Source: Hexactinellida sp. DTS-2022 (lineage: Eukaryota > Porifera > Hexactinellida). From it: a stretch of DNA of 64,000 bases. The stretch's first letter is position 1. Each line of letters starts with the position of its first letter. Position numbers and translations under genes: made by a program. Location: the NCBI GenBank assembly GCA_028753945.1, contig JAPNXP010000001.1, positions 5,880,501 through 5,944,500 of the forward strand. Direction: 5' to 3'. Of the stretch, positions 12,403-64,000 are shown in pieces. The notes beneath the pieces are model-generated. The model worked only from the letters and a program-made list of their open reading frames with translations, made no database searches and was not told where the DNA came from.

Positions 12403-13490
12403 CCAATTTTTATCTGATCATGTCAAGCGTGGGCTCTACATTTCGAAGCTCCATGAAAAACTTGACTCTTGTCTGAAGGTCAAAGGGTATTACGTACCAG
12501 GCACGATTATTTTCGAAGTTCTACAGGATTGCGATGAAGAAACAATGGTAATTAAATTATCTATGAGTTTTTAATATAAATAATACAAAGATTTATTGCA
12601 TGAGTACACCTTGTTTAGAGAAGAGATATTCTGTACACATTATCTGAGTGGACGAAAGAACTTTTCCCACAATTGGGGGAAACTAAGAACACAGATTATG
12701 TGTACAAAGTTCTTTATGGTGTGGTAAGTTGCAATTTGATGCAATCTAATTTAATTATTTAGTCTGTTATATTTATCTTATACTTGTACAATTAATGACC
12801 TAGGCTATGGAATACCTACAGCGAGAAATAACAGCTCCTTCCACACATACTCCCTTAGACCTCCATACTCTCAAAGCTGATGATCCTTCCATAACCCCAA
12901 TCACAATTGACTGGAAAAAAGAGAAGTGCTCTCTGCTTGATTGCCCATTCCAACAGCCAACTGATCAACACTCTAGCATGGCCGGGCAGAAGTTACAAGC
13001 ATATGAGCCGTGGATCTGTGATTCCATTGGTGCTGATGGAAACTGTCTCTTTAGGTGCCTTTCAAAAGTGATTTCTGGGAGTGAGGAGTATCATGCTAAG
13101 CTACGCGGTGAGATATGCCGCTACATGCTGAGTGATGGAAAATACGTTATCGGCTGGTACTTCTCTCAGGTTCTATCTACCACTCCTGCTGAACATATTA
13201 GTAAAACTTGCATGTACAACGATAGAATTCGGGGTACCAATGCCGAGTTGATAACTCCTTCTGCACTACTCCAGACCGATATATATGTTGCTAACAAGGT
13301 ATATTGCACAGAGGGAAGTAAGGTAGCAGAAACCCGTTGGTCACGTATAAGAGCTTCCAACATCAACAACAAAAACCATGCTCTATACATTACTAACTTT
13401 TCAAAACACTTTGAACCTGTCACGAGAATGATTAATAGCCAAACTCCAACATTCTTCTTTCACGATACAACACCAATTAAAATCAATTAA
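12403..13490 (+). CDS. OTU cysteine protease-like module of the Ginger1 element
   Basis: Three exons keep one frame across two tiny introns: 12403-12547, 12619-12723 and 12804-13490, with GT..AG at each border. The last exon runs 227 codons from its first internal ATG. It holds DGNCLFRCL, the Asp-Gly-Asn-Cys nucleophile loop (Cys at residue 80), and KHFEPV with the presumed catalytic His at residue 201. The protein should cleave ubiquitin-type or similar isopeptide bonds; why transposons carry it is not settled. It may be the C-terminal part of the integrase transcript or a separate gene; the joining exon (about 12180-12250) is unclear. No break is seen in this portion. Confidence 0.75.
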
Positions 13491-20077: not shown

Positions 20078-22155
20078 CTTTAAATTTCCTCAAGAAAACC
20101 AACTTATTATACTTACTGATCAGTGTTTAACAGAGTGCTGTGATGAAGGTTTGGGCAAACCTTATCAGCCAAAGATTATTTTCCAAAAATCAAAAGAAAA
20201 CAATGAAAACAAACGCGTGCATTCCTTAGCACCTGGTTTGAAAATCATAATTGGCTTACCTATTGACTAACGCGAACAAAGTTTACTGTTATGTTTGCCG
20301 AACAGCAAACAGAAGGCAGTTGATTAACTTCAACAAAAGTGCTAAAGATACATTCGTCACTTTTGGATTCGATAACTGGAAAAAGGGAAAGGAACGTTTA
20401 AGGAACATGAAAGATGTAAAGCGCACTTAGAGGCATGTATGAAGCTCGAGTCTCTTTTACATCCATCTGTCTCTACAAAACTATCAAGTCAACTCCTGAA
20501 TGATCAAATGCACCATATAGAAATGTTCATGAAGGAGTTGTCATCAGTTAGGTATTTAGCTCGCCAAGGAGTAGCTTTACGAGGCTACAAAGAAGAAGAT
20601 GGTAACTTTATACAATTATTGAAGTGCAGAGCAGAAGATAACCAAGGCCTTGAATTATGGGTGCATGAAGGAAAATACCTATCTCATGACATTGTCAACG
20701 AAGAGATGATGGCTCATGATATTCTTCGAGGGCTCTTAATTGAAATAAGGGAAGCTAATTGGTTTTCATTAATTGCAGATGAAACTAGAGATATATCTGG
20801 CTCAGAACAATTTTCTATCTGTATACGTTGGGTGGATAACAATTATGTCATTAATGAAGACATGATCGCATTCGCAGAGGTAGAGAAGACTGATGCTACT
20901 ACTCTGTCCAACACAATCTAACATGTTCTTGTACGTAGTGACCCTGATCTCTCAAATTGCCGTGGCCCAGCATATGACTGAGCATCCAATATGTCTGGAC
21001 ACCTTACCGGAGTTGCTACCCGTATACAGAAAGAACAACCAAAGGAATATCATGTCCACTGTGTTGCTCACTGCTTGAACCTTTGCTTACAAGACATTGG
21101 AAAGAGGTGTGTATGCATAAGGAATGCTCTTGAAATTGCAACCGAGTTATCTAACCTTATTCGAGCTTCTCCAAAACGTTTTGCTTTGTTTCGCCATCTT
21201 AGAGATCAACTTCGTCCAGGTTCTCCTGGATTGAAACATCTTTATCCAACAAGATGGACGGTACGTACAGCTTCCATTGATGCGATTCTCAAGAATTATG
21301 TAGTTATCTGTGAAGAATTGACAGAAATAGCTACTGAATCGCATGGCGAAGCATCTACGGAGTCTTTGGGATTTCTCGCTCTAATGAAAAAAATTTCAAC
21401 TTTTTGGGGCTTAAGCTTGCTCATCTTATCTTCGGAGCCACTGAGAACCTGTCTTTAACACTACAATACAAAGATATTAAATTGCTCAAGAAGCTTCAAA
21501 GGCTGTTTAATTTAACATTATAATTCTTGTTAAGGCAACGCTGTGATTCCGCATTTGAAAGCATTTATAACTCAACAGTCGTGAATTCACAGTCTTACAC
21601 TCAACAACCTTCCCTACCAAGACAGAAGAAAATTCCTAAAGGTTTTCTGATGGCACTACCGTTCAACATTGTACTTCTATAATGGAATATTTCAAGCAAC
21701 AGTATTTTGAAGTTATAGTGTTACTAATAAGTGAAATCAAAAAAACGGTTTGATCAACCAACCTTTTCGATTATTCAAGAAATAGAGAAAGTCATTATAG
21801 ACTCTTGTAATGGTGCTATGTTTTAAACATCCTCAGATTTCCAAAACATGTATGCTACAGACTTGAACATTGAGATTCTTCTTGTCCAGCTACCAATGAT
21901 GCCAGATGTTGTTAGAACTGCTAACAAAGACTATAAAATGGGCATTCAAAAGATGTCAACACTGTGTGTGAAATTTTCAATGTCTGTAAGTTTCCAAAAA
22001 CAATGTTTTCCGAAGTTAATAAACTTTTTCAGATGTACTTAACTATTCCATTGACATCGGCTACTGCAGAGAGGACATTTTCAACCCTAATACGCCTCAA
22101 ATCATATTTGCGTTCAACTATGACTCAGAAACGCTTGAATCATCTTGTTATCATA

Positions 22156-33019: not shown

Positions 33020-36000
33020 CTAAGCAAAAAAGAAGGAATCAAAATGTTCATTTCCTTCTAGACGGCTACTAAGTCTATGATGTAAAATACAGACTTTCTG
33101 TGCATTAAAAATCGGATCACATTCAATAGGAGTGTCTAACTTATTGTGTAAATAGTTAGGGAGAATGTTCCAATTCATTGAGTTGACATGAGTACAGTCA
33201 ACTGATAATATGTCAATTCCAGCCAAGGCGGCTAACATATTAAGTTCAACATTTGTACCCCAAGCATTGGGTGCAGAAATAGCGTTAATATGTTCATGCA
33301 ATTCCTGCTCACTGTGTATGCCAGATGTGCGCATAACATTGTAGTGATGCTGGGTACTGGTAATGAATGTATTAATCAGATTGTACTTTAATATCTCGAA
33401 ATAATTTTCAGTGCCAAATATTATATGAGATAGGGTACGGTACAAACAGTTACCATCTGGTTGAACATTATACACTGAAACATTCTGACCAAAATATGTT
33501 GTCAGTTGTGCTTTAAGTGAGGTGTAATAATTGCTTACTGCACCTCGAGTCTCACGGATAGGTAAAATTAGTATCGCGTGTAATCCAATACAATGCGCAA
33601 TCTTCTGCCGCATTGGGATAGTAAGATTATTCACCGTACCATTGAGAAAATACTCTGACAAATCGAATGGATCTCGAATTATTGCATCAAATATACATTC
33701 ACGATCTGATAATGGTGATACAATGTATTCAGCTATATCCATTTTGTCTATAACTTCCAATGGGCTAATAGTACTGTCATTAAACTCAAAAAGTTTAATG
33801 ATTTTACCCTTTGCATCAGATATATTTAGGACAGACTCTCTCTTTGCAGGAGCAATAGCCTCAGGCAAAGGAGTCATTGTCAATTGGGAACTTGGGAATG
33901 TTTCATTCAATAGAGAACATATTTCATCTATGTCTTCTATGGGCTCAATATGAGAAGAGGAATTAAAAACTTCCCTATAGACTACATTTCTAATCCAAAC
34001 TTCCCCAGATTTTGATTTGTCAGTTCCACATACCATTATTTTTAGTCCCAATGGATTTTTAACTCTACTCAATGCAACATAGAGTTGGCCATGACTAAAA
34101 ATGGCTTCAGGGGATGGCAGATATAGACCAACGGTATCCAAACTCTGACCTTGCCCTTTGTTAATTGTGATACAATAGGCTAGGCGGATTGGAAACTGCC
34201 TCCTTCTGAGAATAAATGGAAGTTCAGACTCAGAAGAAGTCAATATAATTCGTGGTATAAACACTCGCTTATGCTTGTTTGTACCAGTTGCGATCTCCGC
34301 GTCAATTACTCGGTTTGAGAATGCTCTAATAATCAACCGAGTACCATTACAAAGACCCTCATCGGGATCAAGGTTACGCAATAGAATTACAGTCGCAAAC
34401 AATTTCAAGAATAGCCGATGAGGAGGCATACCGTTAGGAGTGATAGAATTTAAAAACTCATTTGGAAAATTTACTGCAGCAGAACCTTCAACAGAATCTG
34501 CGCTCAACAGAGTTATACCATCACCAGGAAGCTGATGAATTACGTAATCGTTTATTAAATCAGCTGTATCATTTTTAGGACACAGTATAATTTTTTGACT
34601 TACATAATCACGATCAGCATAATTTACATTTATATCACCATAGACTGAAGTGACCAAGTCTGTAATGGAATCACCTGGAACTACAAATTTGTTATCTATG
34701 TGAATCATTTGATTTTCATCCTCAGGTTCAGTGCCTTCTCCTACTCTTAATAAAAAGTTGGAAAATTTACTGACCTCGAGGGCATCTTGTGACAATAATG
34801 TTTGGAGGCGCATATTTATAGTTAGCTTCATTACTTTAACATAACGCCAGAGATATGACCTATTCAGACAGGAAGAGACCACTTCGGCTCTCGACCCATG
34901 CTTAACTACAGGGGGTATCTGACGGAAGTCGCCTCCAAAAACCATTACTTTTCCACCAAAGGGGAGATCACAGGAACAAATATCCCTCAAACTGCGATCA
35001 ACACACTCAGCTACATGCTTATTTGACATGCACGCTTCATCCCATACCAAAAGTTTTGTACGCTTAATTAGCTGTGCCAAAGCACTCTGTTTCGAAATGT
35101 TACATACAGATAACTCATTGATATCAATGGGAACTTTCAACCTAGAGTGGACAGTCCGCCCTCCTGCGAGGAGGAGAGCGGCTATACCACTGCTAGCTAA
35201 CCCAAGGGCAATTTGACTCTTCGAGCGAACTTGAGCCAAAAGTATATTATAAAGGAATGTCTTCCCTGTGCCCCCGGGACCATCTACAAAGAATATTTTG
35301 GGATACTGCTCAGGATCATTTACCGCTGCTATTATAGAGGTAAATACACTAAGCTGATCAGAATTAAGAGAAGGAACATCATGAACAACTATTGCTAGCT
35401 GCTCATCAACGTTATAATCTAATTCTCTCTGAATAATAAGAGCCTCCTCGTATGGACTTCTGGTATGAATAGGTATTGGCATCCCTGGGAAATCTGCTAG
35501 AGATTTACCCTGGTTTTGCAAACGCTTATCAATATCCACTAATACAGCATTAAGTATGTGCTCATCGACCTCAATATCGGGCACAGATTTTCTAGCACGA
35601 TGCAGAAAGTCATCAGAAAAAGCAAATTTATACTTTTCCCAAAGAGCCGCAGGATTACATGGTTCGTTATAGAGTAGAATGGTAACGAATAGATGACGTA
35701 ACTGTGGAGGCATATGCCACGAAGCAGCCATATCCAAACACATATCATATTCGCTATCATCTTCCAGCAATCCGCGGTGGCATGCGGCCTCCTTGAAGGT
35801 ACCACAGACAGTTCCGTCAGGAAGAGTACGAATAGTCTCAAAGCTGGTACAGCCAGTGACGTGATTCAACAGAATTCTCAAGTAGAACCGCTCTCCCTCA
35901 GTTGGATGAGCAGAAAACACTCGGCCAACCATCTTACCGTGCCCCTTAACTCGAGGCTTCCATTCTCGCTTAGTTTTATCCCATACAAAATATTCAGGAA

Positions 36001-38461
36001 AATCTAAGTAAGAGATTGGCAGAGCAGATGGAAATTTTTGGTTAGCTAGAAACCATCCTGTTAAAGTGGAATGTTTTTCTACACTTAACACATCCTCAAT
36101 ATCAGCGTCATCTCTAAAAACGACAGATTGCTGATTTTCAAGATGAAGAGCTAACCTCATCACATGTGGCAGATTAGCATGGAGATCGTAAGAAAATATT
36201 CTATAGCAAGCCTCACATGCAGATATATACCGAGCTTCCACATAATTAGATACTTCGTCTACCTTCCGAGGTTTATCAGTGTGATCACCCGACTGAAACT
36301 CGATAATGGCTCGGTCATGGCCTTTATAGACATACTTATAGAGGTACTTAACTGCTCTAACTGTGCTGCAAATTTCAACGTTAATGTGAGCATTATACTT
36401 TAACAAAAGGTATGGGTTATACGGTACAACCCAGCGATTGTCAAGCTTCATGCCTGCTACCTCTACAGTACGGGAGTTATACAATGGGTAACCATCCTTA
36501 GTGGTGGTAGTAACGTCAGAGAATTTCTTTGGGTATTGTTTAGCACATGAACCATTGCGCATACAAACAGCAGCCTTCTTTGCAGTACCACATGGACCAT
36601 GTAACATACAGCGCTTCACAATCTGATGCAATCTCGGATTGAGATCAGGATCAGGAAGTTCAGCACCCACAATCTTATCGTAATCAGAAGGGTCACGTGG
36701 TTTGCAATCATCAGCTAAGATCACCAATATATGAGCATGCGGAAGACCACGCTTCTGAAATTCAATTGTGTAGACGTGTGCAACGGTTTTACCAAGAACA
36801 TGTTTCTTAAGAATGTCATCTAGTAATTCCCTTAGCTTTTGTTTAAAAACACGAACAATTAAATCGGGACGATCAGTAGCCTTCTGGTTAGGCAAAAGAC
36901 TACTCGTTATTTCGTCCCAAAGCGGATTACATGTAAATGTAATGAATAAATCTGGCTTACCAAATTTCCGCACTATTGTCATTGCGTCCTGATAAATTTG
37001 GATCATTTGCCTCGGAGAGTTGGTATAGCTCGAGGGTAGAATAATATTCCGTCCCAAATCAGTCGCATTAGTGTCTCCTTTGGAAACAGCATCAGCCAAT
37101 CCACTATACAGATCAACTCGGATCTTTTGCTGATTGAGCTTAATGTAGTTGAGTCGCTGCTGCTCAATCTTAGCGTACATGTCAACGATATACTGGTGGA
37201 ACAGCCTTCCCGAGAGGTGCAGGTGGTTAAGCCCGCTCCTGAGCATCAGGCGATAGCTATAGAACTCCAGTGCAGTAACATCGCGTCTACCTCTGCTATG
37301 AGGGGTACCAAGGTGCCAGCCATCATTTCCTAGGGGAAACAGTAAGACATAATGCAGCGAGTCATACGCACAGTGTGTTTCTGTGATCCTTTTGAGACCA
37401 CCACTGTGGGCATGCAGCACAATATCCCTGTTTGCAACTCCCTCAGAGTAACCTCCACCAGGGAGCAGCACTGCAATTTCAGGAGCAGAAGGAGCATTGT
37501 ATCGGCGTGGGTCTGGGCAACCATCAGCTCTGATGATCAGCCTGATGTCCACTCCTCCTTGTGCTCGCATTAGATCAACTGCGTGCTTGAAGTGTGAGAC
37601 ATAGGGGTTAACCTCATATAGCATTTGCTGCAAGGCCTTTAACTCAGGAAGTTTGGCCTCGCCTAGATGTCTCTGACGGTTTTCCACTTCAGCCTCTGCG
37701 GTACCGTCGTGGATGTAAATCTGGGCAAAGACTGGTGCCTCATCACTATTTGGAAGCAAACTTCCAATGTAATGGTGCACAACGCCCTGAATACGGAAGG
37801 TATATACACCACGTCTAGCATTAGCAAGCTCTTTGTCGATATTTGCTCCGAGGGAACAAAACGCAAGGCTTGAGTTGTATGCTCGTATGTGGCTCCTGAA
37901 GTACTTGCCTCTGCTATCAGCAGCTGTGAGCAGATGGCCTAGCAACTCTGGAAGTTTATCTAAGGAGGGAAGAACAACCTTGCCCTCTCCGCAACAGAGG
38001 GAAAACTTTGCACATGCTTTCGTACTTGTGGAAAGCTTTTCACTCTCCCAAAACTTAGCATCACAAATTGAACAACTATAGGACATACTACCTATTGAAT
38101 GTTCATCAACCAAACCATCAATAACCTCAGAAGAGATTTGTGATCTGGCTAAATTGAGGTACCTCTTAGATTGGAGAGTCTTGCTCGTCTCATACAACAG
38201 AGTCCGGGACTTCAAACGAACTATTCGCTCATTTTCAGACTCATTTTGTCTGAGGACCTCCTGGTGTTTGCGCTTGTATTCCAAGCGATCAGCTGATTCA
38301 GTCTCGGACTCATTTTGTCTGTGGACCACCTGGTGTTTGCGCTTGTATTCCAAGCGCATAGCAGTCTCTGCGTCAGACTGCGCCAGTCTCCGAGAGGTTT
38401 GCCGCTCTCGTTGCTTCTCAAGACGGAGAGCTCTTTCGCCAGGAGTCTCATTCTCACGCAT
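33020..38461 (-). CDS. Helitron RepHel protein with C-terminal OTU domain, 1813 aa
   Basis: A single uninterrupted frame. Residues 1-90 are three charged coiled-coil repeats (RLEYKRKHQ type). A CSICDAKFWE zinc-binding stretch follows near 130. The Helitron-like N domain leads to the HUH nuclease with RGLPHAHIL (about 570-580) and a tyrosine motif in SNYVEARYISACEACY. The SF1/PIF1-like helicase has Walker A GPGGTGKT at about 1061, LVWDEA, GDFRQIPP, and a late motif ITINKGQGQSLD with YVALSRV. The end is an OTU protease with DGNCLYRTL (Cys about 1672) and NEHFDSF (His about 1806). It nicks DNA, joins it through tyrosine and unwinds it in rolling-circle transposition. The ATG at 38461 is chosen because an in-frame stop lies shortly upstream; a charged repeat continues a little above it, so a spliced longer N-terminus is possible. 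All motifs look intact. Confidence 0.93.
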   Translation of the reverse strand: MRENETPGERALRLEKQRERQTSRRLAQSDAETAMRLEYKRKHQVVHRQNESETESADRLEYKRKHQEVLRQNESENERIVRLKSRTLLYETSKTLQSKRYLNLARSQISSEVIDGLVDEHSIGSMSYSCSICDAKFWESEKLSTSTKACAKFSLCCGEGKVVLPSLDKLPELLGHLLTAADSRGKYFRSHIRAYNSSLAFCSLGANIDKELANARRGVYTFRIQGVVHHYIGSLLPNSDEAPVFAQIYIHDGTAEAEVENRQRHLGEAKLPELKALQQMLYEVNPYVSHFKHAVDLMRAQGGVDIRLIIRADGCPDPRRYNAPSAPEIAVLLPGGGYSEGVANRDIVLHAHSGGLKRITETHCAYDSLHYVLLFPLGNDGWHLGTPHSRGRRDVTALEFYSYRLMLRSGLNHLHLSGRLFHQYIVDMYAKIEQQRLNYIKLNQQKIRVDLYSGLADAVSKGDTNATDLGRNIILPSSYTNSPRQMIQIYQDAMTIVRKFGKPDLFITFTCNPLWDEITSSLLPNQKATDRPDLIVRVFKQKLRELLDDILKKHVLGKTVAHVYTIEFQKRGLPHAHILVILADDCKPRDPSDYDKIVGAELPDPDLNPRLHQIVKRCMLHGPCGTAKKAAVCMRNGSCAKQYPKKFSDVTTTTKDGYPLYNSRTVEVAGMKLDNRWVVPYNPYLLLKYNAHINVEICSTVRAVKYLYKYVYKGHDRAIIEFQSGDHTDKPRKVDEVSNYVEARYISACEACYRIFSYDLHANLPHVMRLALHLENQQSVVFRDDADIEDVLSVEKHSTLTGWFLANQKFPSALPISYLDFPEYFVWDKTKREWKPRVKGHGKMVGRVFSAHPTEGERFYLRILLNHVTGCTSFETIRTLPDGTVCGTFKEAACHRGLLEDDSEYDMCLDMAASWHMPPQLRHLFVTILLYNEPCNPAALWEKYKFAFSDDFLHRARKSVPDIEVDEHILNAVLVDIDKRLQNQGKSLADFPGMPIPIHTRSPYEEALIIQRELDYNVDEQLAIVVHDVPSLNSDQLSVFTSIIAAVNDPEQYPKIFFVDGPGGTGKTFLYNILLAQVRSKSQIALGLASSGIAALLLAGGRTVHSRLKVPIDINELSVCNISKQSALAQLIKRTKLLVWDEACMSNKHVAECVDRSLRDICSCDLPFGGKVMVFGGDFRQIPPVVKHGSRAEVVSSCLNRSYLWRYVKVMKLTINMRLQTLLSQDALEVSKFSNFLLRVGEGTEPEDENQMIHIDNKFVVPGDSITDLVTSVYGDINVNYADRDYVSQKIILCPKNDTADLINDYVIHQLPGDGITLLSADSVEGSAAVNFPNEFLNSITPNGMPPHRLFLKLFATVILLRNLDPDEGLCNGTRLIIRAFSNRVIDAEIATGTNKHKRVFIPRIILTSSESELPFILRRRQFPIRLAYCITINKGQGQSLDTVGLYLPSPEAIFSHGQLYVALSRVKNPLGLKIMVCGTDKSKSGEVWIRNVVYREVFNSSSHIEPIEDIDEICSLLNETFPSSQLTMTPLPEAIAPAKRESVLNISDAKGKIIKLFEFNDSTISPLEVIDKMDIAEYIVSPLSDRECIFDAIIRDPFDLSEYFLNGTVNNLTIPMRQKIAHCIGLHAILILPIRETRGAVSNYYTSLKAQLTTYFGQNVSVYNVQPDGNCLYRTLSHIIFGTENYFEILKYNLINTFITSTQHHYNVMRTSGIHSEQELHEHINAISAPNAWGTNVELNMLAALAGIDILSVDCTHVNSMNWNILPNYLHNKLDTPIECDPIFNAQKVCILHHRLSSRLEGNEHFDSFFFA

Positions 38462-38757
38462 TAAGCGTTTTCGCTCTGCTTCCGTATTGAACAGTTTAGT
38501 ATTTGGAAATTATTATCCGACATTCTTGAACAAAATGTATTATTGAGCTCTATACAGCTACTATACATTAATATATAATTCTCTCTGCATACTTAATTAG
38601 TTAATTCTCATTGGTTAACAATTCCTGCATACATAAAGCTGTTATAAAATTAACCAATTAAATTAATAATTTAAGTAGAAAATTCTCATTGGTTAACTAC
38701 ACTATTTTTACATTCTAATTAATCAAATTATCTATAGTATCATATCTGTTTATAAAT

Positions 38758-51560: not shown

Positions 51561-54460
51561 TCAGGAATCGAACTTTTTCAATTTCCGCTTTTCTAATCCC
51601 TTTAAAGTAAGGCTCGAATTGTAATTCTTGACAAGATTTGCAATTAGACAATTTGCTTCACTCCGAATGAGACTTGATAGAATGGTTGAACCTTTCACAT
51701 TACAAGAAGGACAAGTAGTTCTCCAACCTTCAAAACCACTATCAAGACCAGTTAGGGAGCCAAAAGCAAGTGTTACTAAAATCTTTCTAGTTTGACCTTC
51801 TATCAACAGGGGCATAAGTTCACTATTACTTTGGATTATAGTTAGAATCTTCCAAACAATAATTAAAGATTCCAATGCAAGCTCTGAAGGATACTTTAGA
51901 CCACCACGATCAGAAAGCTGCAGTAGTTGGTACCGGAATTCGAAGGATTCATCTACTAGAATATCTTTGTCGATAATTAAAAGATCTCGGCATATTAAGC
52001 ACGGTGAAGAATGCTTAAGGTATTGGTAGGCAGCATACCCAGCAATAAAATCTAGTGACTGGAGTGTTGGGGTATCGCACTCAATGGCTGATACATCTGA
52101 TAGAGCAACAAGAAAAGGATCAATGTAAATTTCTGTATCTGTATGCACGCTATAAATGGGAGAGAAAGACTGAATAAATTCCTCCATAGAAATCTGGCTG
52201 GATGGTTGAGTGTTGGTATTAGAAAATAGAGTTAATAGATTGGAGATCTTCAAACGACGTTCAGCTTCTAAAATTTGAAGGTACGAAACATGGTAATTTG
52301 ATCCAGACATCATTTGATAAAGTCCGAAATGGTGCTCTAGTGGATCTGTCTGTAAGAAACGTGTTAAAATGTAAACATATCCACATTGTCCAGTTAGATA
52401 ATTAACTATTTGAGGGAGTACAATGCACGCGTGTCTTAAGCTTGTAAAAGTTTGCTTGCTCAATTTGCCATCTTTCAAAGAGTGTGATTCCCAAGTCTCT
52501 AGCCAATTTACTATCCTGGTTAAAAAGATAAAGCGTTCATCATTAACTGTGAAAGGGCGACATGAAGAATCATTTAAACGAATAAGCTTATATGGAACAT
52601 TTACATTAAACATGTTCCATAACGTGAGTAGAATTTTACGAAACTAGAGGTGTTTGTTTTCAACTCACTGCAACGTTGATCATTTTGGAGAGCTAGAGCA
52701 GCAATCGTGGACTCATGGATTACTTTCAGGACTAATTTGACATTTTGGCATTCCAATACAGAAGGATAACATGATTTAAATGTCAACCGCGGGGCTAATT
52801 TTGCAAGACTCTCCTTCTCTGAGCTATAAAGGGCGCGTACATCTTGGAAAGAAGCGCAGCACACCTTTAAAGGAAATGAACAATAATAAAATCGAATATC
52901 GTCAAAATCGGGTTAGAAAAAAAACTTATAACTGGACTTCAGATTTAGCCAATTGTTTCGTACAGATTTCAAAATATGGACGAAATCGAAAGTGAGATAC
53001 AGAGGCCTGTTAGGAACACAAGGATGAGGTACACAAGTTTCAAGATTACCAACAGGAGAGAATAGTTTGAATAACTTGACGTTAAGAGGATAGTTATCTG
53101 TTGAGATTACATCCACACATAAACCACAAGTTTCGATATCTTTAATACAAGCGAGTATGATGGGGAATATCTTCTCAGCGGAAAGAGAGGCACATGGTAA
53201 TAGACGAACTATAGTAGACCATTTTTTCTGGAGACTTGATACCATAATAGCGAATACAGTCTTTATTGGATCTTCTGGGCTTAGACTAGAACCATATATC
53301 TTGCCTCCTTTATATGTGACATCAGATTTTACGTGAATTTCGTCCATTTGCATAACGATATGTTTCTCAGCTTCAGTGAAAGAATTTGTCGCTGCTTGAG
53401 GAAAGGAAAGAATTCACACTCAAGTCCGAATGAAGAATACAACTTCTCCAAAGTGTTGACATGAGGCAGAGATAGACAAGCCATTTGTTGAAGATACTTA
53501 TAACATGCTGGTGAAATTAAATGTGCTTTAAGTGCCATAACCTGTGTGAGGATGTTGTAACTCCGCCTGTTTTTGGGTACAATACTGTTTTCAAGCTGAC
53601 ATTGGATGAATTGAAGCCTGGATATTTCGAGGGAATCAGTTAATTCAATTAATTAACTCTAATTCACCATTAGATGAAAGTACTTTGTTAATGAGTAGTT
53701 GGATATTGTCCTTCGCTAAAGATAAAGTCTCATTAACGGTCTTTGAAACAGATTCTGTGGACAGAACAGGACGAGGGGATATAGAAATCTCACAGAGAAT
53801 TGATTCAAGGTGTCGTATATCGCTGATTGAGAAAATTGGAATTGGTAAAATTTCTCCATTACGATAAGCTCAAACTGACAAATCGAAGGACACTAATATA
53901 TGGGTGTTGACAATGATATTGTGTTCTGTCAGTAGAGGTAGCATATATATTAGACTATGATCATCTGGGTACCATAAAGACCATGTTTTAGGTAGGGTAA
54001 GCAAATGTTACTTAGCTTGGATATCCTGGAAACAATTGATCTGATATTTCTCTTTCTCTTTGCTCTCAGATGCCAAGCTAAGTGTTAATGCTTCATTGAA
54101 CATTTCCTCATCTTTTGAGGTAGGTGACACAGATCTGCGCTTTTTGGAGCTAATAGATTGAAGGGTGTCCTGTTAGAAAAACTGGAACGGCATCATCTAT
54201 TAGCTTTGGGTTGACTCTTGGAATTTCACGATAAGTACCATCTCCGTTTGGAACTTTGTGAGTATACTCAACATCCTCCTGGCGAAAATGATTTACACAC
54301 ACATAAACCCCCTTGAATGATTGTAAATCGTCTCTCCGAAGAACCTGAAGCCATCTGTGTCTTAGGTCATCTGGTTTAGTAGGTAGTTTAAAAACTGGGA
54401 GACGGTGATCGTCGTTGTAGTTGATTTTGCATCCGAAAACGGCACAACTTGTTGGGCATC
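51561..54460 (-). pseudogene. P-element transposase (THAP9-like), frame-damaged
   Basis: In order on the minus strand. A THAP zinc finger lies at about 54460-54160: CAVFGCKINYNDD, HRWLQVLRRDD, CVNHF and the closing AVPVF. 53538-53353 is an unassigned linker. 53390-52913 is the RNase H-like core with MDEIHVKSD, ISTDNYPLN and FDFVHILKSVRNNWLN. 52864-52601 follows. 52613-51561 is the C-terminal half with TDPLEHHFGLYQMMSGSN and LQILEAERRLKISNLL. It would bind the terminal repeats through the THAP finger and cut out the element. Neighbouring pieces are in different frames at about 53350 and 52610. At least the first looks like a frameshift rather than an intron, so the copy is probably dead though not very old. 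Confidence 0.85.
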
Positions 54461-55485: not shown

Positions 55486-56785
55486 CAAAGCAATAACATT
55501 AATAATGAGTTTTAATAAGGTGTTCCTTACCCAATTATGAGCCGCTTTTGACTTCAAGTTGGGCGGATAGTGCAGACCTTAGGATTCCAACCCAGCTGCA
55601 CGACTAGCCATTTTCAAAGTCGTCTGAAGGAAGTTCAGTAGGTCGTTGGTAGATGGAGATAAGGAATTGGCATTCCTGTGATCGCACCAGAGTCCCATTT
55701 GTCCAGGCTGATTTCTACGACTTAACGGTAGAATTCTCCATTATTTTAATATAATCGTGATAACTCTTCGAATGCTTTTGGCTTGCAAGGCCTGCCTGAG
55801 ACAGTGCAGGCTAATATTCGCATTATTCCCGTAAGCACCTGAGGGTTGTTGTCTCCCAGTTGGTTCGTCAGCAGGTGCGATACTTGTGGGAGTAGGATTA
55901 GTTGTTGAGTTAGGGTTTGTAGTAGTAGGGCCATCAAGGTCTTCTTACTTCTTATTCAGAATGGATCAGGATTGCCAGTTCTACCTAATCTTGAAGAAGT
56001 TTGGTCAGGATCGTTGGGAGAACATGTAAGGGAAAGATAATTGTGTCCAGTTGAGGGTGAAGGCGTTGGTCTCTAGTGTATTGGCTCTCTCTCTTCCAGG
56101 TCACAAAGCGTGCAAGTTGAGTGTTGAGTCGGGACGCAAATACATCCACTGTTGGGGCAGTTGTAGCGTACTGAGTTTATGTCTGAGTATTTATTGGAAT
56201 ATTTCAGAAAGTGATGTGCTCCGTTATTAGTAACGGAGTAAACGGTAACGGTAACGGAAAAGTTACGGTAACGGGTGTCGACAAGTAACGGTAACGGAAA
56301 AAGTAACGGTAATGAGCATCGCCGAGTAACGGTATCGGAAAAAGTAACGGTAACAGACATCCGTTACTTTTGACTAGATACCGTTATCTTTAATCAGTTA
56401 CTCTTACCATTACATTACCGTAACACTGTTACCGTTACTACGTTAAACCGTGACCTACGTTATAATAAGGCCTGTTCACTAGTGTTAAATTTTGGACCAT
56501 GGATGTCGGTTAAGTCCATTGATTCTTTTGACAATAAATGTTATAGTTAGAGATAATTAACCAAATAAGATGACCTACGTATGTTATATTAAGGCATGCC
56601 ATTTATTGAAAATTTTGCACAGTGGGCCAAATAGAGCTTTCGGTGTAGGCATTTATTTAACATTTGGCCATATATAGTGTATAAATGTGATATAGGAAAC
56701 CTCTACCTAGGAATCGATTGACGCTATCGTTGAACCTCTATGATTGCATTTACCCATGATATCAATGTTTAATATCCAAATATAA
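55486..56785. repeat. Repeat-derived stretch, no gene
   Basis: 56215-56445 is a run of gtaacggtaacggaaaaagt motifs ending in a mirror of taccgttac motifs. 56450-56640 has two gacctacgttat blocks, the second altered, also found at 1715 and 4090. The block 55500-56100 has a few short frames but no recognised protein. Confidence 0.5.
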
Positions 56786-58520
56786 TTATAAAAAATTGTG
56801 GTTTTTTAATAATGAATTAGAAATATCAAGAAATAACGACTTTACTACTATCTCTTGATCATTAGTATCTTGTCTACGACTAGGACAGTGCAAACGGCAA
56901 CTGTGAACTTCTTCACTACATTGTTTACACTTTATAACTTTACGAAGAGTTAACATCACCGGGTCACTATTAGTCAGGAGGCGTGTAAAAATGTATGTGC
57001 AGTTTAATACAAATGAGCATTTTCTTGAAAGATTATCACGATATCTTCTAACTAACTTGTTACAAGCTTCTAGAGCCTCTTCTGAATACTCTTTCATTAC
57101 ATATCCATCATTGCATGATTCAATAAGCTCCACACAGTGAGCTAATAGCTTATGAAGTGAGGGAGTTATATTTACCCATGGCAATTCGGTTACAATAATT
57201 AATATGTATATTTGCACAAGGTGTTCGGTTTAGCAGTATCAATCTGTTTACTGGAAATAAAGACACGTAGAATGGCTGAAGTGTTGTTATTTATTATTCT
57301 TATTGTATCTCTAAATTGTGATGGTATTAGTGTCAAGACCCATTTAAGGAAGTCATTCTTATTCATAAAACAGGATCTAGTTATATTACCAGTTGAAGTT
57401 GTACCTCCTTCACTTGATGGCTGATCAATTCTCATTCCAGTCTTTTCTTGTAGTAACTCACGAGTAAATTTCATGGAAGTTTGGATATATTTAGAATTTG
57501 GAGACCATTTATATGTACCTTAATGCAAATGGTACACTACAAGCATGAACCACCTGAAAACCCAAGTATAGGTCTGAAGTGGAAAGGCTGACATTATGTC
57601 GATATTTGATAAAGGTTCATGGGTCAAACCAAACCTCTCGTTCGAAGGTAATGAGAAAAATTCTTCTTTGTCGACAGAATCGAAGATTAATTTGGCAGCT
57701 GATATAGTTGTGTTGATCGGGTACCCAGCTCGGATGAAATCCAAATCTTTCAATTCTGTAAATTTAGCTGTGCACAATTGACAGCTAGCCCCTCATGCAC
57801 CTGATAGAATGGAAGACATTTTCCCATCAAACATACTACGCATGATATAATAATCCTTCTTGCTTAATTATTGATACTTCTAGATTGATAACTTCTTCCA
57901 TTATGAATTTCGTGTTTTCTAGATTTTCCTTCTGAGCCAGAAGTACAACCGGCCTTAGTCCAAATGGAGAATTAGGGACCTCATTTACATAAAGAGAGTT
58001 ACCAGCGTTATCTGTTAAAGACAACACTTTAAATCCAACAAGATGTAATTTTTGGTATTGAAATTTGGATCTTCATGTAGTTGGTTATAAACCTTATGAG
58101 AACCCGAGCCATATAATCCATCAGATATTTTCAATGTCATCGGATACATTGTACGTATTGTCAATCTTCTGATCGATAGACTCGAACATCCGAGAAACAG
58201 TTTGTTGCAAAAGAACTTTATATGAGATGCCTATCCCAATTATTTCATCCCTTGGATTCTTAATAGATTGCAATTATTTGCTATTACAATCTTGCCACGA
58301 TATTATTCACTAATTGTATTATAGGAAGGGAATATTAAGTTTTCTGTTTTGCAGAGGTGGCGGAGTTCTGTGTATTTCCTTTACCAATTTCGAGGAGATT
58401 GAGGATAAAAACTAATTTAGGTATGGGCATATGTTGTAAAGGTTTTGAGAATGTACCCGTGCTGATGATTTCCCTACAAACAACTGGAAGTTTCTTATCA
58501 GAAAGTTCTTGAGAAACCAA
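56786..58520 (-). pseudogene. RAG1/Transib-like transposase, degraded
   Basis: Minus-strand blocks in the order of the RAG1 core. ISDGLYGSGSHKVYNQ lies at about 58125 (region of the first catalytic Asp). Then come NSPFGLRPVVLLAQKENL and EEVINLEVSI at about 57970-57850, CQLCTAKFTELKDLDFI at about 57780, and RFGLTHEPLSNIDIMSA with FRWFMLVVYHL at about 57645-57520. MRIDQPSSEGGTTSTGN lies at about 57435, LIPSQFRDTIRIINNNTSA at about 57330, and ITPSLHKLLAHCVELIES at about 57170. YSEEALEACNKLVRRYRD, with the third catalytic Glu, lies at about 57100, and KCKQCSEEVHSCRLHC at the tail near 56920. Several stops and frame changes make it dead. The tail resembles the CCGHC-type zinc knuckle I recall from lancelet RAG1-like proteins. 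No RAG2-like gene or terminal repeats were found. Confidence 0.75.
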
Positions 58521-59876
58521 TTATAAAGCATAGGCATAGCATTATATACATAAGGCAATGGCACTCACTCAAATTTCTAAACCAGGGATTGGTTAGTATA
58601 GTCCACTAAATATATGCCATGCAATTATTCTTCGAAATAAGTATGCCAGGGTGCTTCTACTTATGTAATTGTTTTTTATAAAGGTAGTCATGTACAAGAC
58701 GCATATTTTGGAGATAGCACAATGTCGAAATGACGTCACCGTTTTGTCTAATAGGCCAAATATGCCAAAACTTTGAACGCATGTAAAATGTTTTATTTCG
58801 CTTTTCAAAAAATTGCTTTGAGTAACCCATATAGGAGTCATTTTACATAAAATATCTCAGAATCAATTATGGAATGTTATCACATGCCTCTGTTGCCTTG
58901 GCAACGTGATTTCAAGGCTTGAGGTCATATCTTGAGAAGGAATATAGTTACAGCTTAGTCAATGGATCCAATTGATTGCCCGTCCTCAACTTCCTATTCA
59001 ATGATAATACATTTGGATGCTCTATCTCCAACCAATTTCCCGCACAATGTGTTTAACAGTTTGAATGTACGTATATTCAATAATCACAATTCTTCACATA
59101 TGGAGAAACCATAGCAACCAAATATAAACTATGGAATGCTAGGCTAAATTCCATATTGCGCTATGATCCGGGAGCTATAAATAATATATGTTGTTGAAAT
59201 TGAATATTTAACTATAAATAAGATAAATTTAGAGTGGTATTCGGCAGTATTCTTAGTTTCCGAGCACTTCCAGTAATGGCAACTAACATTTTCTACTAAT
59301 AATAAATCTCTAATTCATAACTCGACTAATAGTTGGGTCAAAAATTAAGGTTCCGTGACCAACCTCTGGCTAGTTAAGTTTTATGCCTGATTCTGATACT
59401 CAGGATTTAACTCGCGATTTAAGCTCCCATGCCGCTCTGGAAAGTTTGGGCAAACTTTTTTATAGTGACAAATTCAAAGGGCCTCCGGCAATTATTTTGA
59501 AAAATTAAGGCCCCTCTCTGAACATTTCATAAATTGAGATCAGAGTATTTTTGAACAGTATGCAATAAGTAGTAGCTGCACTGAAAATTACAACTCAATC
59601 GGGACTATACATTTAATGTAATAACCTTTTGAAGATTCTTACGTCATTTGTCACCATGGGAGGTCCCTTCTTTAAACTATTTTTTTAAGGGATTTGAAGC
59701 ATATCTCATCCTATATACATGCAATAACCTTTTAACTCGCTATGTAGTATGTCTCCATGTAAATTTCGGTAATAGACCTAAATTTACCACGTTTTTCATT
59801 AATTTAGTGATTATTATAATATTTCTTCGATTCAGGATCCATAGCCACTGTCAAGTGTGCCTCTTTAATGTCTCGT
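58521..59876. other. No gene; diverged repeat pieces
   Basis: 58860-59020 is related to 2205-2390 (gttgccttggcaacg, cttcctattcaatgataata). Open frames at 58593-58841 and 59648-59929 match no protein I know. Confidence 0.4.
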
Positions 59877-60916
59877 TTAACCATGAAATGGCCCTGATAT
59901 TTGAGACATTTGAAGTCCCGCCATCTTGAAATGGATAAGTCTCCACTCGCCGGATGACTTCGGTCTCAGGAAAGTTTCAACGTTCCGTTCTATAGCCTCA
60001 ACGGCCATTAGTCGCTGAATCTCTAGTTCCATGCAGTGGCGGCGCGAGACCAAAATGAGCGATGGGGCTGGCCGGGGCAAGGGACATTTGAGATGGGGCA
60101 AAATGTTTAACTATAAAACCACTATCAAAAAATATAGGTAGACACACAATAGTGGGATGGTGAAATTTCATGGTAAGACTAACAGTAACAACAAGGTTTA
60201 AAACATGAAAACCAATTCAAACGTAATCCATGCTGCAAAATTGGGTTCAAAAAGCGTCCTATTAAGAAGACGAGCGAAAAAAACTTCAAAAGCGCCCAAA
60301 TAAATTCTAAGCTATTGATAAGGCTTGCCCCACCAGTGGTGGGGCAAGCCGAAGGCCAGGTGGGGCATTTGCCCCACCTTGCCCCAGCGTGGCGCCGCCT
60401 CTGGTTCCATGGCTTACAAATGTTGCGGTGTGTGCACACTGGTGTGGATATTGTTTGTAGTGTTAACCATGGATGATGGAGATTATCTCTTTACCAGGGT
60501 TTAATGTGTTCCAATTTTGTATGAAGAAGGGGAGCTGAGCTGTAGGGTCTGCGGTTCCTAGGCTGCACCGGAGGGAGGGCCATTGATGCGTTTATTGTTG
60601 TGATAATTTGGTTTGGGAAGTTCTTTTCAGAATTTGGCGGGATTGTTGATTTGTCCCACTGGAACACGATCCTCCGGTGGGACCCATGCGAAAAACTGGT
60701 TTGATCCAAATCGACGTATTTAGGTGAATAACCTTTGGCGTGGGACCGTGGTTTATTGGCTGGCCTCGATTTTTTTGAAGGAGATGGTAGCCCAGTGTTC
60801 GATTTAGGAGTGTTCTTTGGATTGTTAAATTTTGCAGGACCAAATAGCAAGTCTAAGTCAGGCTGACCATGGCCTACTAAATTTACGGCTATATATGTCC
60901 CCGAGAAGGCCATCAA
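59877..60916 (-). pseudogene. Retroelement-like relic (possibly DIRS-type)
   Basis: Upstream on the minus strand is a proline- and lysine-rich region of about 140 codons. Downstream, past a MITE, is MELEIQRLMAVEAIE followed by PKSSGEWRLI and FKMAGLQ. These resemble the start of a reverse transcriptase of the DIRS or gypsy kind (PKS-G-WR-I...FKME-L). It is a broken fossil with only the gag-like and early RT parts visible. No terminal repeats were found, so the family is uncertain. Confidence 0.4.
60034..60403. mobile_element. hAT-type MITE, 370 bp, with 8-bp TSD
   Basis: Ends cagtggcggcgcgag and gtggcgccgcctctg are inverted. The duplication gttccatg lies at 60026-60033 and 60404-60411. A ggtggggcaagcc palindrome sits in the right third. 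It lies inside the retroelement-like relic. Confidence 0.88.
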
Positions 60917-60971
60917 ACAAGAAGGCCAGTTTTTATAACAATATGAATGTTGCGGAAATAGTCATAGTATA

Positions 60972-62125
60972 CACTACCCGGCCAAAAGTATTTGAACAAC
61001 AAATACAGTACATATTGGATATAGTGATAATGGTGGGGACATATGATTTGTGGCCAAATTATCACTATATCCAATATATCACTATATCCAATATATCACT
61101 ATACCCATTATATCACTATATCCACTGTATCACCGCATCTAATATATGACTGTATAGATTGTCAATACTTATATTCTGAAAAGAATAATCAAATTCCTTA
61201 TCAAATTCAAGTGGTAACGATATTTATACTGTAAAATATGAAATTATGGGGTCCAAGGAAGGTCAAAAATCCAATATTCTTGTGTAATCTGTACACAAAT
61301 TATCACTATATCCAATAATGATATCACTATAACCAATAAAATTTGAATGGGATTTGCTCGGGGATGCACCTAAAGCTGCAAAATTATCACTATATCCAAT
61401 ATATCACTATATCCATTATCACTATATCTATTATGTACAGTATTATGAATTAATACATTTAAGCATTTAGCAGCAAATAACATCTATAGATGCTTCAATA
61501 TGGCTATTTACATAAAACTATACCGTAAGTACAGTATAAGCAATTAGCAAAACATTGAATGACATTTTTATGGAAGTATTTAACTAGCTATAATTTTGTA
61601 ATGTATTTTCATACTTATTCGTCCAAACAATAAAATATATTAATATTATTCACCTTACTCGTGTAAATCGAAAAAAAATGGGGGGAAATCGATGATCGAT
61701 AAAAATCCGTCGGTGAAACTTTCGGCAATCCAATCGATACAAAATTCTTCATTCGATAATCGAAAAGTTTTCTCGATTGGATTGGATTGGCAATCCTGCT
61801 TATAACTGGTTAACTACTGTTTAAACTACTCTGAACTTACTATAAATGTCTTACTATAGTTGGAAAAATTCAAATCTGAGATCAGAATTTGTAGATTCTA
61901 ATTGCATCACAATGAGCAGATTTTTTAAATTAGCTCATTATATAATTAATGAGTTTAACACCGCCATAAAAATTTAAATACAAACATTTTGCCATTTTAG
62001 TATCCATAACATATCGTTAAATGTAAACATCCATGTTGAAGCATCTACTAATGTTATTATGCTGCTAGAACCTTGAATATATGAATACTAATTGTTGTTG
62101 TTCAATAAATTTTGGCCGGTTAGTG
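60972..62125. mobile_element. Tc1/mariner-type element with satellite core, 1154 bp
   Basis: Ends cactacccggccaaaagtat and aaattttggccggttagtg are inverted, with TA at 60970-60971 and 62126-62127. Two internal blocks (61060-61150, 61380-61440) are runs of a tatcactatatccaata motif. It is related to 47947-48474. There is no transposase gene. Confidence 0.72.
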
Positions 62126-62690: not shown

Positions 62691-62920
62691 TTGCGGCGTT
62701 GCCGGGAAAGATTCGGAAAACTGCTGTGGCGTCGCCGGACTGCATTCGAATATGTAATGTAGCGACACACATCAAACAGTCAAAGGAGTATAGCGACCTT
62801 CAGCTAGAAATATGTGACGAATGTATTACAGCATACCGTGTTGTTATAAGTTCAGGGATTGCAACAGTAGAGAAGTGCATTCCACAGTGGCTTAAAACTG
62901 TAGTTCATTGGAAATAGGCA
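62691..62920 (+). other. Unassigned open frame
   Basis: A frame of 72 codons beginning TTG (62699) reads KTAVASPDCIRICNVATHIK and later LEICDECITAYRVV. It lies in DNA of slightly higher GC but matches no family I recognise. It may be an exon fragment or chance. Confidence 0.25.
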
Positions 62921-64000
62921 TTTAGGTTGCAGTTACTCAAAAGTGAAGTATTATAAACATATACGTACGTAGGTTATTGATAGCTGGGAATTGAATGGCA
63001 TCATCAAAAAATGATTTATGCAGTCTCTTAAGTTTAGGAATGAGTGATTTGTTGTAAATCAATGAAATACATAATTTATGGTTTGTTTTAACAATCTTTT
63101 AATAATCACCCATTGTTATTGTTCAAATATCTTGAACATAGGAGAATATTTGAGATAATGCAATATGACCAATGGACTCCCAAAATATGACTTCCTATAC
63201 GATAATAATACATTACCTGTGTATAGCATTAGCGGATTACGAGATATCAATAAGACACACTGGACCCAAGTTACAGGACACGAGCTGGCAGCCTACAGTC
63301 CTGTATTAAAGTAGTTTAAGGGGTGCATCACACTAAATAATCTCCTAATTGTACATAATAACTTCCTTCAATTTCAAAACTCAGCATGAGTTCATAGTTC
63401 GTTGCTCTGATTGATGAAATTGTCCTTAAGTGCTCAGTTCTTTTATTATAGTACAGTATCTGTCATACATTTGCGTAATCACTAAGATACACATCTTAAT
63501 AGGAACGAAAATTAGTTTTTCATTTTCATAGCAACACAAAGTGTCAATGGAATTCACTAAAATATTCAAAGTTGCCAATGTTTCGGAAGCTATAATTTTT
63601 TAAAATAATTATCTCTAGATGTGCTAATTAAGGAAATATATTAATAACGGCTTGAAATTCGTTACCACTTTCTTGTCACTCACTTTGAATATTATCACGA
63701 AAATATTTGAGATTTTTTAATTATGAGATTTGTCGAATAATATGTGACTACAACGAATTCGAATTCAAATTTAGATTTAGCATACTTGAATTGTATTATA
63801 GAGTCTAAATTTAGCTGATACATTTTTGTTAGAAGTAGTTACAAACATCATAATATAAGTTATTTTTGAAATTCCCTAACCACGAATTCGAACCATCAAT
63901 TTCTGTGACTTTTTGAATCCTTCGAGCAGAAGGATCCAAGCTGATAGGAATGTTGAAGCAACCTGTGAAACAAATATCATTAACGAGTTGTTAAATTTAT
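62921..64000. other. No gene recognised
   Basis: AT-rich sequence up to the end of the window, with no long open frame on either strand and no repeat ends that I can pair. Confidence 0.45.

Follow-up and report, generated by a model that had tools for sequence, protein, structure and literature searches.

A transposon relic in a sponge genome is very probably a Transib of the kind nearer RAG1, with a zinc-knuckle tail

Introduction

The locus described here raises the question of whether a broken RAG1-like coding stretch in a sponge genome moves the origin of RAG-like (RAGL) transposons further back, or whether it is what remains of a Transib. In the parts of Martin et al. 2020 (PMC7204232) on which we draw, a CCGHC tail is described in invertebrate RAG1-like (RAG1L) proteins, RAGL elements are reported from protostomes and cnidarians, and it is left open whether Transib preceded RAGL or the reverse. 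Tao et al. 2022 (PMC9435367), who reported bacterial and ctenophore Transibs, argued for the Transib-first order from bacteria, ctenophores, and other metazoans. According to that study, Subgroup I Transibs carry the CTT1 tail, the alpha11-alpha12 region, and asymmetric ends, with the NBD equivalent present in both subgroups; judging from the order of a figure legend, we count the ctenophore and Hydra-9 Transibs among the Subgroup I members.

A sequence-only reading of the window, the whole 64,000-nucleotide stretch analyzed (C1:5880501-5944500), had described a dead RAG1-like transposase with a possible zinc-knuckle tail and no visible RAG2-like gene, RAG-like rather than plain Transib, possibly from an early-branching animal. 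As checks, it named a RAG1 profile match and further genome copies with CAC-type ends and a kelch-repeat partner, and it would have given way to a position inside Transib with no tail homology. We analyzed the locus together with its relatives in the assembly (112,398,167 bases, 18 contigs).

Results

A broken transposase gene on the minus strand

Translation of the window and comparison with relatives from the same genome revealed a broken RAG1/Transib-type transposase gene on the minus strand, extending from approximately 58535 to 56786 in at least five frame pieces (Table 1). The blocks SDGLYGSGSH, TGN, LHKLLAH, and SEEALEACNK and the tail CKQCSEEVHSCRLHC are all present on this strand, confirming a RAG1-related coding relic. 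Its start lies slightly beyond the interval 56786–58520 that had been delimited at the outset, as does the 3′ terminal repeat at 56618. Between 58535 and 56825, five segments match proteins encoded elsewhere in this genome, with 30–61% identity for the three best-scoring proteins (L021, L015, and L003), and the window aligns with residues 132–708 of the 712-residue frame of L009. In piece E, the relatives align over 57199–56825 and the frame stays open down to 56786. Approximately 130 N-terminal residues, counted against the intact L009, were not found in the relic.

Table 1 Features of the relic and of the surrounding window (positions within the window)
Feature	Position	Strand	Description
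Relic piece A	58380..58535	-	Aligns with residues 132–183 of intact L009; 1 stop
Relic piece B	58027..58380	-	Contains SDGLYGSGSHKVYNQ, the first catalytic-Asp motif with Asp replaced by Tyr; 3 stops
Relic piece C	57851..58249	-	Other frame, overlapping B; contains GFKVLSLTDNAGNSLYVNEVPNSPFGLRPVVLLAQKEN; 4 stops, some only in the overlap with B
Relic piece D	57202..57846	-	Second catalytic Asp (MFDGKM), CxxC pair, GGTTSTGN; includes the stretch read as the alpha11-alpha12 equivalent; 2 stops
Relic piece E	56786..57229	-	LHKLLAH block, catalytic Glu (SEEALEACNK), C-terminal tail; no stop
Relic tail CKQCSEEVHSCRLHC	56885..56929	-	Zinc-knuckle-type C-x2-C-x4-H-x5-C; CTT1/CCGHC equivalent
Relic 3′ (right) terminal inverted repeat	56618..56660	-	Plus strand reads CACAGTGGGCCAA...GTAGGCATTTA; flanking 5 bases TTTTG
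Repeat beyond the relic 5′ side	~59330..59795		470 bp, 88% identical to the flank of L029
GTAACGG-rich repeat adjoining the relic 3′ end	56245..56448		83% identical to 206 bp beside L021
Second right-type Transib end	62883..62930	+	CACAGTGGCTTAAAACTGTAG...GGAAATAGGCATT
Helitron, well preserved	33020..38509	-	1829-residue open frame; Helitron_like_N, PIF1 helicase, OTU protease domain
OTU-protease ORF	12804..13490	+	
DUF4371 piece	20376..21458	+	With a DUF659 piece below cut-off
Transposase piece	52913..53413	-	TNP-like RNase H

At the position of the first catalytic Asp of RAG1, frame B of the relic reads Tyr (SDGLYGSG); 12 of the 13 aligned relatives read DGLDGSG there and the 13th FGFDGSG. 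The second catalytic Asp and the catalytic Glu are retained. The copy is dead, as the sequence-only reading had held: it carries frameshifts, four of the five pieces contain stops, and the first catalytic Asp has become Tyr. Comparison with the Pfam RAG1 profile gave E = 2.5e-4 for the 147-residue piece 56786–57229, so that a profile match exists, but at 19.7 bits it stays below the curated cut-off of 25 bits; six other pieces scanned gave no match. Piece E also matched HzTransib (6pqn) with E = 1.5e-5. Since the Pfam match is weak and confined to piece E, the case for the relic rests on its relatives in the same genome.

The sequence CACAGTGGSYYAA is located at 56618, 207 bp past piece E, where a right end would sit. 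Patterns of this type with at most one mismatch occur three times in the window (one within the relic) versus 0.30 expected by chance, a post hoc estimate because the pattern was composed after the site had been seen. For the 5′ end followed by TTTTG, a search of 58500–62000 at up to three mismatches returned a single three-mismatch match (CAATGTGTTTAA), which was not accepted. The 5′ end and the N-terminal ~130 residues have been lost or have decayed past recognition, and the repeat on that side (Table 1) occupies the place where the missing 5′ part might have been. Letters similar to the GTAACGG-rich repeat on the other side are found beside L029 as well.

Relatives with paired, unequal ends

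Search of the assembly with the Pfam RAG1 profile identified 68 places (best score 32.4 bits), with no match in any of 14 control genomes. The L021 protein identified at least 75 places; this search scored 71 of 1076 first-look candidates, so the place counts are lower bounds. Among the 18 relatives extracted, 11 have an open frame of at least 690 residues, including L030, whose C terminus looks foreign, and the best preserved of the relatives have a single DDE transposase gene whose product is approximately 700–740 residues long. The catalytic Asp, Asp, and Glu are present in L009, L021, and L001 and in the three references HzTransib, BbRAG1L, and mouse RAG1. In the columns used for the tree, identity to the relic is 54.9% for L009, 54.6% for L003, and 61.5% for L016 (148 sites). 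L001 (C2:3229569), which shares 29% identity with L009, represents a second, deep Transib lineage; it has a DUF1280 match below cut-off (E = 1.6e-4). In L048 and L050, approximately 100 residues ahead of the NBD equivalent have no Pfam match above its cut-off. Pattern matches in bacterial genome contigs (21) and viral contigs (67) included no relative and no Subgroup I protein.

In multi-copy families, ends were first set where the copies cease to match. Both ends were located in 11 of the 18 elements and not found in the remaining seven; element length is 2975–3343 bp, and exact 5-bp target copies flank 10 of the 11 end pairs (TAGTA, GGGCA, GGTTA, CATTA, CTGTT, CTCCA, GACGG, AAATG, CTTAC, and TTTAC), L037 being the exception. 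Most ends start with CACAGTG, which is the consensus RSS heptamer. Reading inward, the 3′ end is CACAGTG in L003–L007, L020, L009, L010, L035, and L036 and in five of six copies of the L026 family, with one change in L033 and a small rearrangement in L022; at the 5′ end, L035 has CACAGTG and L036 has CACATTG. By pattern, an exact CACAGTGG 3′ end lies within 1.1 kb of the catalytic-Glu block in 50 of 60 places, those with none in reach being L008, L015, L018, L027, L030, L033, L049, L070, L071, and L085.

Comparison of the left and right ends revealed an asymmetry. In L003, L009, L026, L029, and L036, the motif GGAAATAGG, or a close form of it (7–9 of 9), follows the heptamer after 10–11 bp on the left and 20 bp on the right, and its left and right offsets differ by 9–10 bp in these five of the ten pairs measured. 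In L021 the spacing is 7/21, and a clear copy at both ends is missing from L028, L037, L048, and L050. The common left-right offset, summed over 11 pairs, peaks at +9 (79), barely exceeding the maximum of 77 in 200 shuffles, whose mean is 68.4. The RSS nonamer (ACAAAAACC) matched 12 left ends at a mean of 5.75 of 9 positions versus 5.07 in shuffles, with none of 500 shuffles as high, and 10 right ends at 5.0 versus 4.87, with 36% of shuffles as high. As the positions of these matches vary, a nonamer in the Transib ends was rejected and none is claimed; the excess at left ends stands. TTA after CACAGTGGn occurs in the tailed families L003, L009, L016, L026, L029, and L035/36 and was unseen in tail-less families, a comparison that is uncontrolled for relatedness and in which other tailed families lack it as well. 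The second right-type end in the window (Table 1) has no transposase match and no acceptable partner up to C1:5947600 (one three-mismatch match), and it likely belongs to a non-autonomous or decayed copy.

The zinc-knuckle tail and its distribution

Analysis of the C terminus indicated that the Cys, Cys, His, and Cys of the relic tail occupy the same positions as in L009 (CKHCGEIGHIRSEKC), with Gly before the His changed to Val in the relic. Close forms are CHKCGELSHICKLSC (L021), CKYCGAINHYCRITC (L071), and CKFCGAINHFCRFSC (L076), and the CCGHC-spaced tail of L001, CKICDVHGHFTRYC, sits one stop beyond its open frame. The tail noticed in the relic is thus homologous to the tails of intact relatives in the same genome. 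A scan of 60 places, which counts each copy of a family separately and in which L008 lacked an anchor, detected the motif C-x2-C-x4-H-x(3-6)-C in 27, among them the window; in five of the 27, a stop falls within the motif or ahead of it. The Pfam zinc knuckle, compared with five genome proteins, touches only L009, below its cut-off (E = 0.027). The motif is absent from L028, L048, L049, L037, L032, L034, L073, L074, and L084, in which the frames are open at this point, and the tail-less L028 and L048 have exact target copies. The tail is probably ancestral and, since several families are without it, was probably lost more than once; the tree, whose supports are weak here, does not fix the number of losses.

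Placement of the relic among Transib, RAG1L, and RAG1

The maximum likelihood tree comprised 473 columns, with HzTransib, BbRAG1L, and mouse RAG1 as the only outside sequences. Rows below 120 usable sites or 200 residues were excluded, L018 is the one of the 20 listed genome proteins that is absent from the tree, the mouse RAG1 row lacked residues 347–459 of its chain, and the relic row followed frame C rather than B at the first catalytic motif, reading S there. BbRAG1L and mouse RAG1 formed a clade with a support of 100, separate from the genome set that includes the relic. The genome set was supported at 99 without L001, and the split between L001 plus this set and the three references at 88; the latter, which parts HzTransib from the genome set, involves long branches. 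The relic grouped with L003, L009, and L016 (support 94), and over the tree columns it is 28.4% identical to HzTransib, 18.6% to BbRAG1L, and 20.7% to mouse RAG1. A profile of 13 genome relatives matched HzTransib with E = 3.4e-54, BbRAG1L with 2.8e-28, and mouse RAG1 with 7.5e-19. Against Pfam RAG1, BbRAG1L scored 246 bits over most of the profile versus 32 for the best genome place and 38 for the L001 protein, so a true RAG1L in this assembly is unlikely.

The relatives read GGT(T/S)(S/T)TGN where HzTransib has GSGTTNDGN, RAG1L MAGN, and RAG1 NGN. Between CxxC and LHSY, approximately 48 profile positions align with BbRAG1L, and HzTransib has 13 residues there. Ahead of these positions lies a stretch that can be aligned with the beginning of the mouse RAG1 core and, with E = 0.16, with the NBD structure 3gna. 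By position and length in the sequence alignment, we take the ~48-position stretch to be the putative alpha11-alpha12 region of Tao et al.

With respect to the features of a Transib, the family has an Asp/Asp/Glu DDE transposase and CAC-starting ends with 5-bp target copies, the relic itself retaining the 3′ end only. Of the Subgroup I features, the CTT1 (CCGHC) tail is present, except in several families, and the terminal repeats are asymmetric; placement in the RAG1L clade was not recovered with BbRAG1L and mouse RAG1 as references. Because published Subgroup I proteins were not in the tree, Subgroup I membership rests on domain criteria. We conclude with high, though not complete, confidence that the relic is a fossil cut-and-paste Transib transposon that fits the published Subgroup I, in a sponge genome. 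Among Transibs it belongs to the kind nearer RAG1 and is not a RAG1L, and the earlier description as RAG-like rather than plain Transib is therefore not supported. Nor does the tail mark a RAG1L, since the same CTT1 tail is reported in Subgroup I Transib (PMC9435367). The combination that would have withdrawn the earlier reading was found by half, the relic being of Transib type and its tail homology being real.

Search for a RAG2-like partner

In the 11 elements with both ends, no frame of at least 90 residues was found outside the transposase frame on either strand, and the 10 that also have target copies are 3.0–3.3 kb long, hold a single gene, and leave no room for RAG2L. None of the Kelch places (73, hand-merged to 29) lies within 172 kb of the 103 transposase entries, which pool the Pfam RAG1 and L021 searches, include some elements twice, and omit C13:2658447 and the window copy. 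Judged by hand, more than 1 Mb separates the latter from the closest Kelch entry on C1. Pfam RAG2 (PF03089) gave no match in the assembly, but it also gave none in the control genomes, and RAG2_PHD gave one match in the assembly, below cut-off. The relatives with both ends are therefore without the RAG2L partner of RAGL elements; none was seen at the relic, which is not decisive there. The absence of a visible RAG2-like gene thus holds, and of the checks named at the outset, CAC-ended relatives were found in the genome and a kelch partner was not.

Host and neighboring elements

Homeodomains were detected at 16 places in the assembly and by eye comprise Msx, NK2, Bar/Bsh-like, Islet, Lhx, POU, paired-class, SIX, TALE, and HNF1 types, none Hox-like; the HNF1 reading is backed by solved structures (E = 2.4e-10). 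HNF1 is not known from ctenophores. Few homeoboxes, no Hox, the presence of HNF1, and 18 chromosome-sized contigs fit the pattern of a sponge, and the host is probably an early-branching animal, as had been supposed. The silicatein-type motif CGA(S/T)YAF, a sponge marker, occurs at no place in the assembly, a result that speaks neither for nor against a sponge. Other mobile elements share the window (Table 1), among them DUF4371 and DUF659 pieces of a kind typical of hAT-like transposons.

Discussion

As read from the sequence, this transposon family comprises one gene, its ends, 5-bp target copies, and a tail, with no second gene. By analogy with what is known biochemically of Transib, ProtoRAG, and RAG, a pair of transposases would use the NBD equivalent and the zinc-knuckle tail to bind the two unequal ends. 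They would nick in front of the CAC of the CACAGTG heptamer and leave hairpins on the flanking DNA, and the element would reinsert elsewhere with a 5-bp stagger. These binding roles, the hairpin step, and any present activity are predicted on the same analogy.

The relic might instead be the remnant of a true, ProtoRAG-type RAGL, once served by a RAG1L-RAG2L transposase and since deprived of RAG2L by decay, a history that would suit the correctly spaced tail and the alpha11-alpha12-like stretch and NBD equivalent, both of which are also in RAG1L. We regard it as very improbable in view of the tree and the Pfam RAG1 scores (246 versus 32–38 bits), of ten relatives with ends and target copies that hold one gene in 3.0–3.3 kb, and of the lack of Kelch places within 172 kb, the silence of Pfam RAG2 proving nothing alone. 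For the intact relatives, element anatomy already argues against it. Recurrence of the tail in deep lineages, including L001 at 29% identity to L009, and the alpha11-alpha12-like stretch leave little room for another account, in which the relic is an ordinary Subgroup II Transib (HzTransib-like) with a zinc-knuckle likeness due to chance; this would explain why HzTransib is the best solved match and why only one of five proteins touches the Pfam zinc knuckle, and we give it a slight chance. That the locus was a domesticated RAG1/Transib-derived host gene, later decayed, is hardly credible: the 5′ terminal repeat was indeed not found for this copy, but the 3′ repeat is in place, the family has many copies, and the reading frame is broken several times. 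The fossil Subgroup I-type Transib is the reading that we retain.

As the relic is a Transib and not a RAG1L, it gives RAGL transposons no earlier origin; it is further evidence for a tail and other RAG1L-type parts in elements that lack RAG2L. The abundance, in a non-bilaterian genome, of well-preserved elements that have such parts but no RAG2 fits the Transib-first order, and the many families offer material for studying which parts are dispensable. Since Tao et al. had already argued for this order, our main addition is the host and the large sample. Asymmetric ends and a tail in Transib are not new, given the published Subgroup I and the 12/23-like ends of some insect Transibs, as stated in the portion of a 2021 hypothesis paper used here (PMC8355894). 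The additions appear to be the sponge host, CACAGTG across families, and repeated tail loss. A literature search by title and abstract opening, with most subscription journals and repeat libraries outside its scope, returned nothing on Transib in sponges, Porifera, or Amphimedon. We also raise, as a conjecture that we hold to be somewhat doubtful, that RAG2-free transposons were already diverse in the earliest animals and had the NBD equivalent, alpha11-alpha12, the CCGHC tail, the exact RSS heptamer, and ends that differ by nearly one turn, the tail then being lost repeatedly. If this is true, RAG-like end asymmetry would predate RAG2L, and tail loss in families that nevertheless moved, leaving exact 5-bp target copies (L028 and L048), would parallel the loss in vertebrate RAG1.

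Comparison with known systems sets these elements apart in different respects. HzTransib (PDB 6pqn; Helicoverpa zea) shares the DDE core, the GTT..GN motif, and the single gene, but it is 25–29% identical, has 13 residues in place of the ~48 positions of the alpha11-alpha12 stretch, and shows no CxxC-H-C tail in its aligned part (to residue 471 of 497). ProtoRAG/BbRAG1L (Branchiostoma belcheri; PDB 6b40) shares the core order and the alpha11-alpha12 stretch and, in the sections of PMC8289069 and PMC7204232 consulted, a CTT* tail, CAC ends, and 5-bp target copies. Unlike the elements here, it has RAG2L, lacks GGT..TGN, and clades with RAG1; the same portion of Tao et al. (PMC8289069) reports that it needs CTT* for cleavage and has a 27/31-bp spacer asymmetry. 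Vertebrate RAG1 and its RSS share the catalytic Asp-Asp-Glu, a weak match in the NBD region, and the heptamer CACAGTG, whereas the elements here are transposons without RAG2 and with no convincing nonamer, and their spacers differ by 9–10 bp rather than the 11 of vertebrate 12/23. From Subgroup I Transibs they differ in the sponge host (sponges are unnamed in the main text of PMC9435367), in the tail-less state of several families, and in heptamers that are mostly exactly CACAGTG; with them they share the single transposase gene without RAG2L, the CTT1 tail, alpha11-alpha12, the asymmetric ends, and the NBD equivalent.
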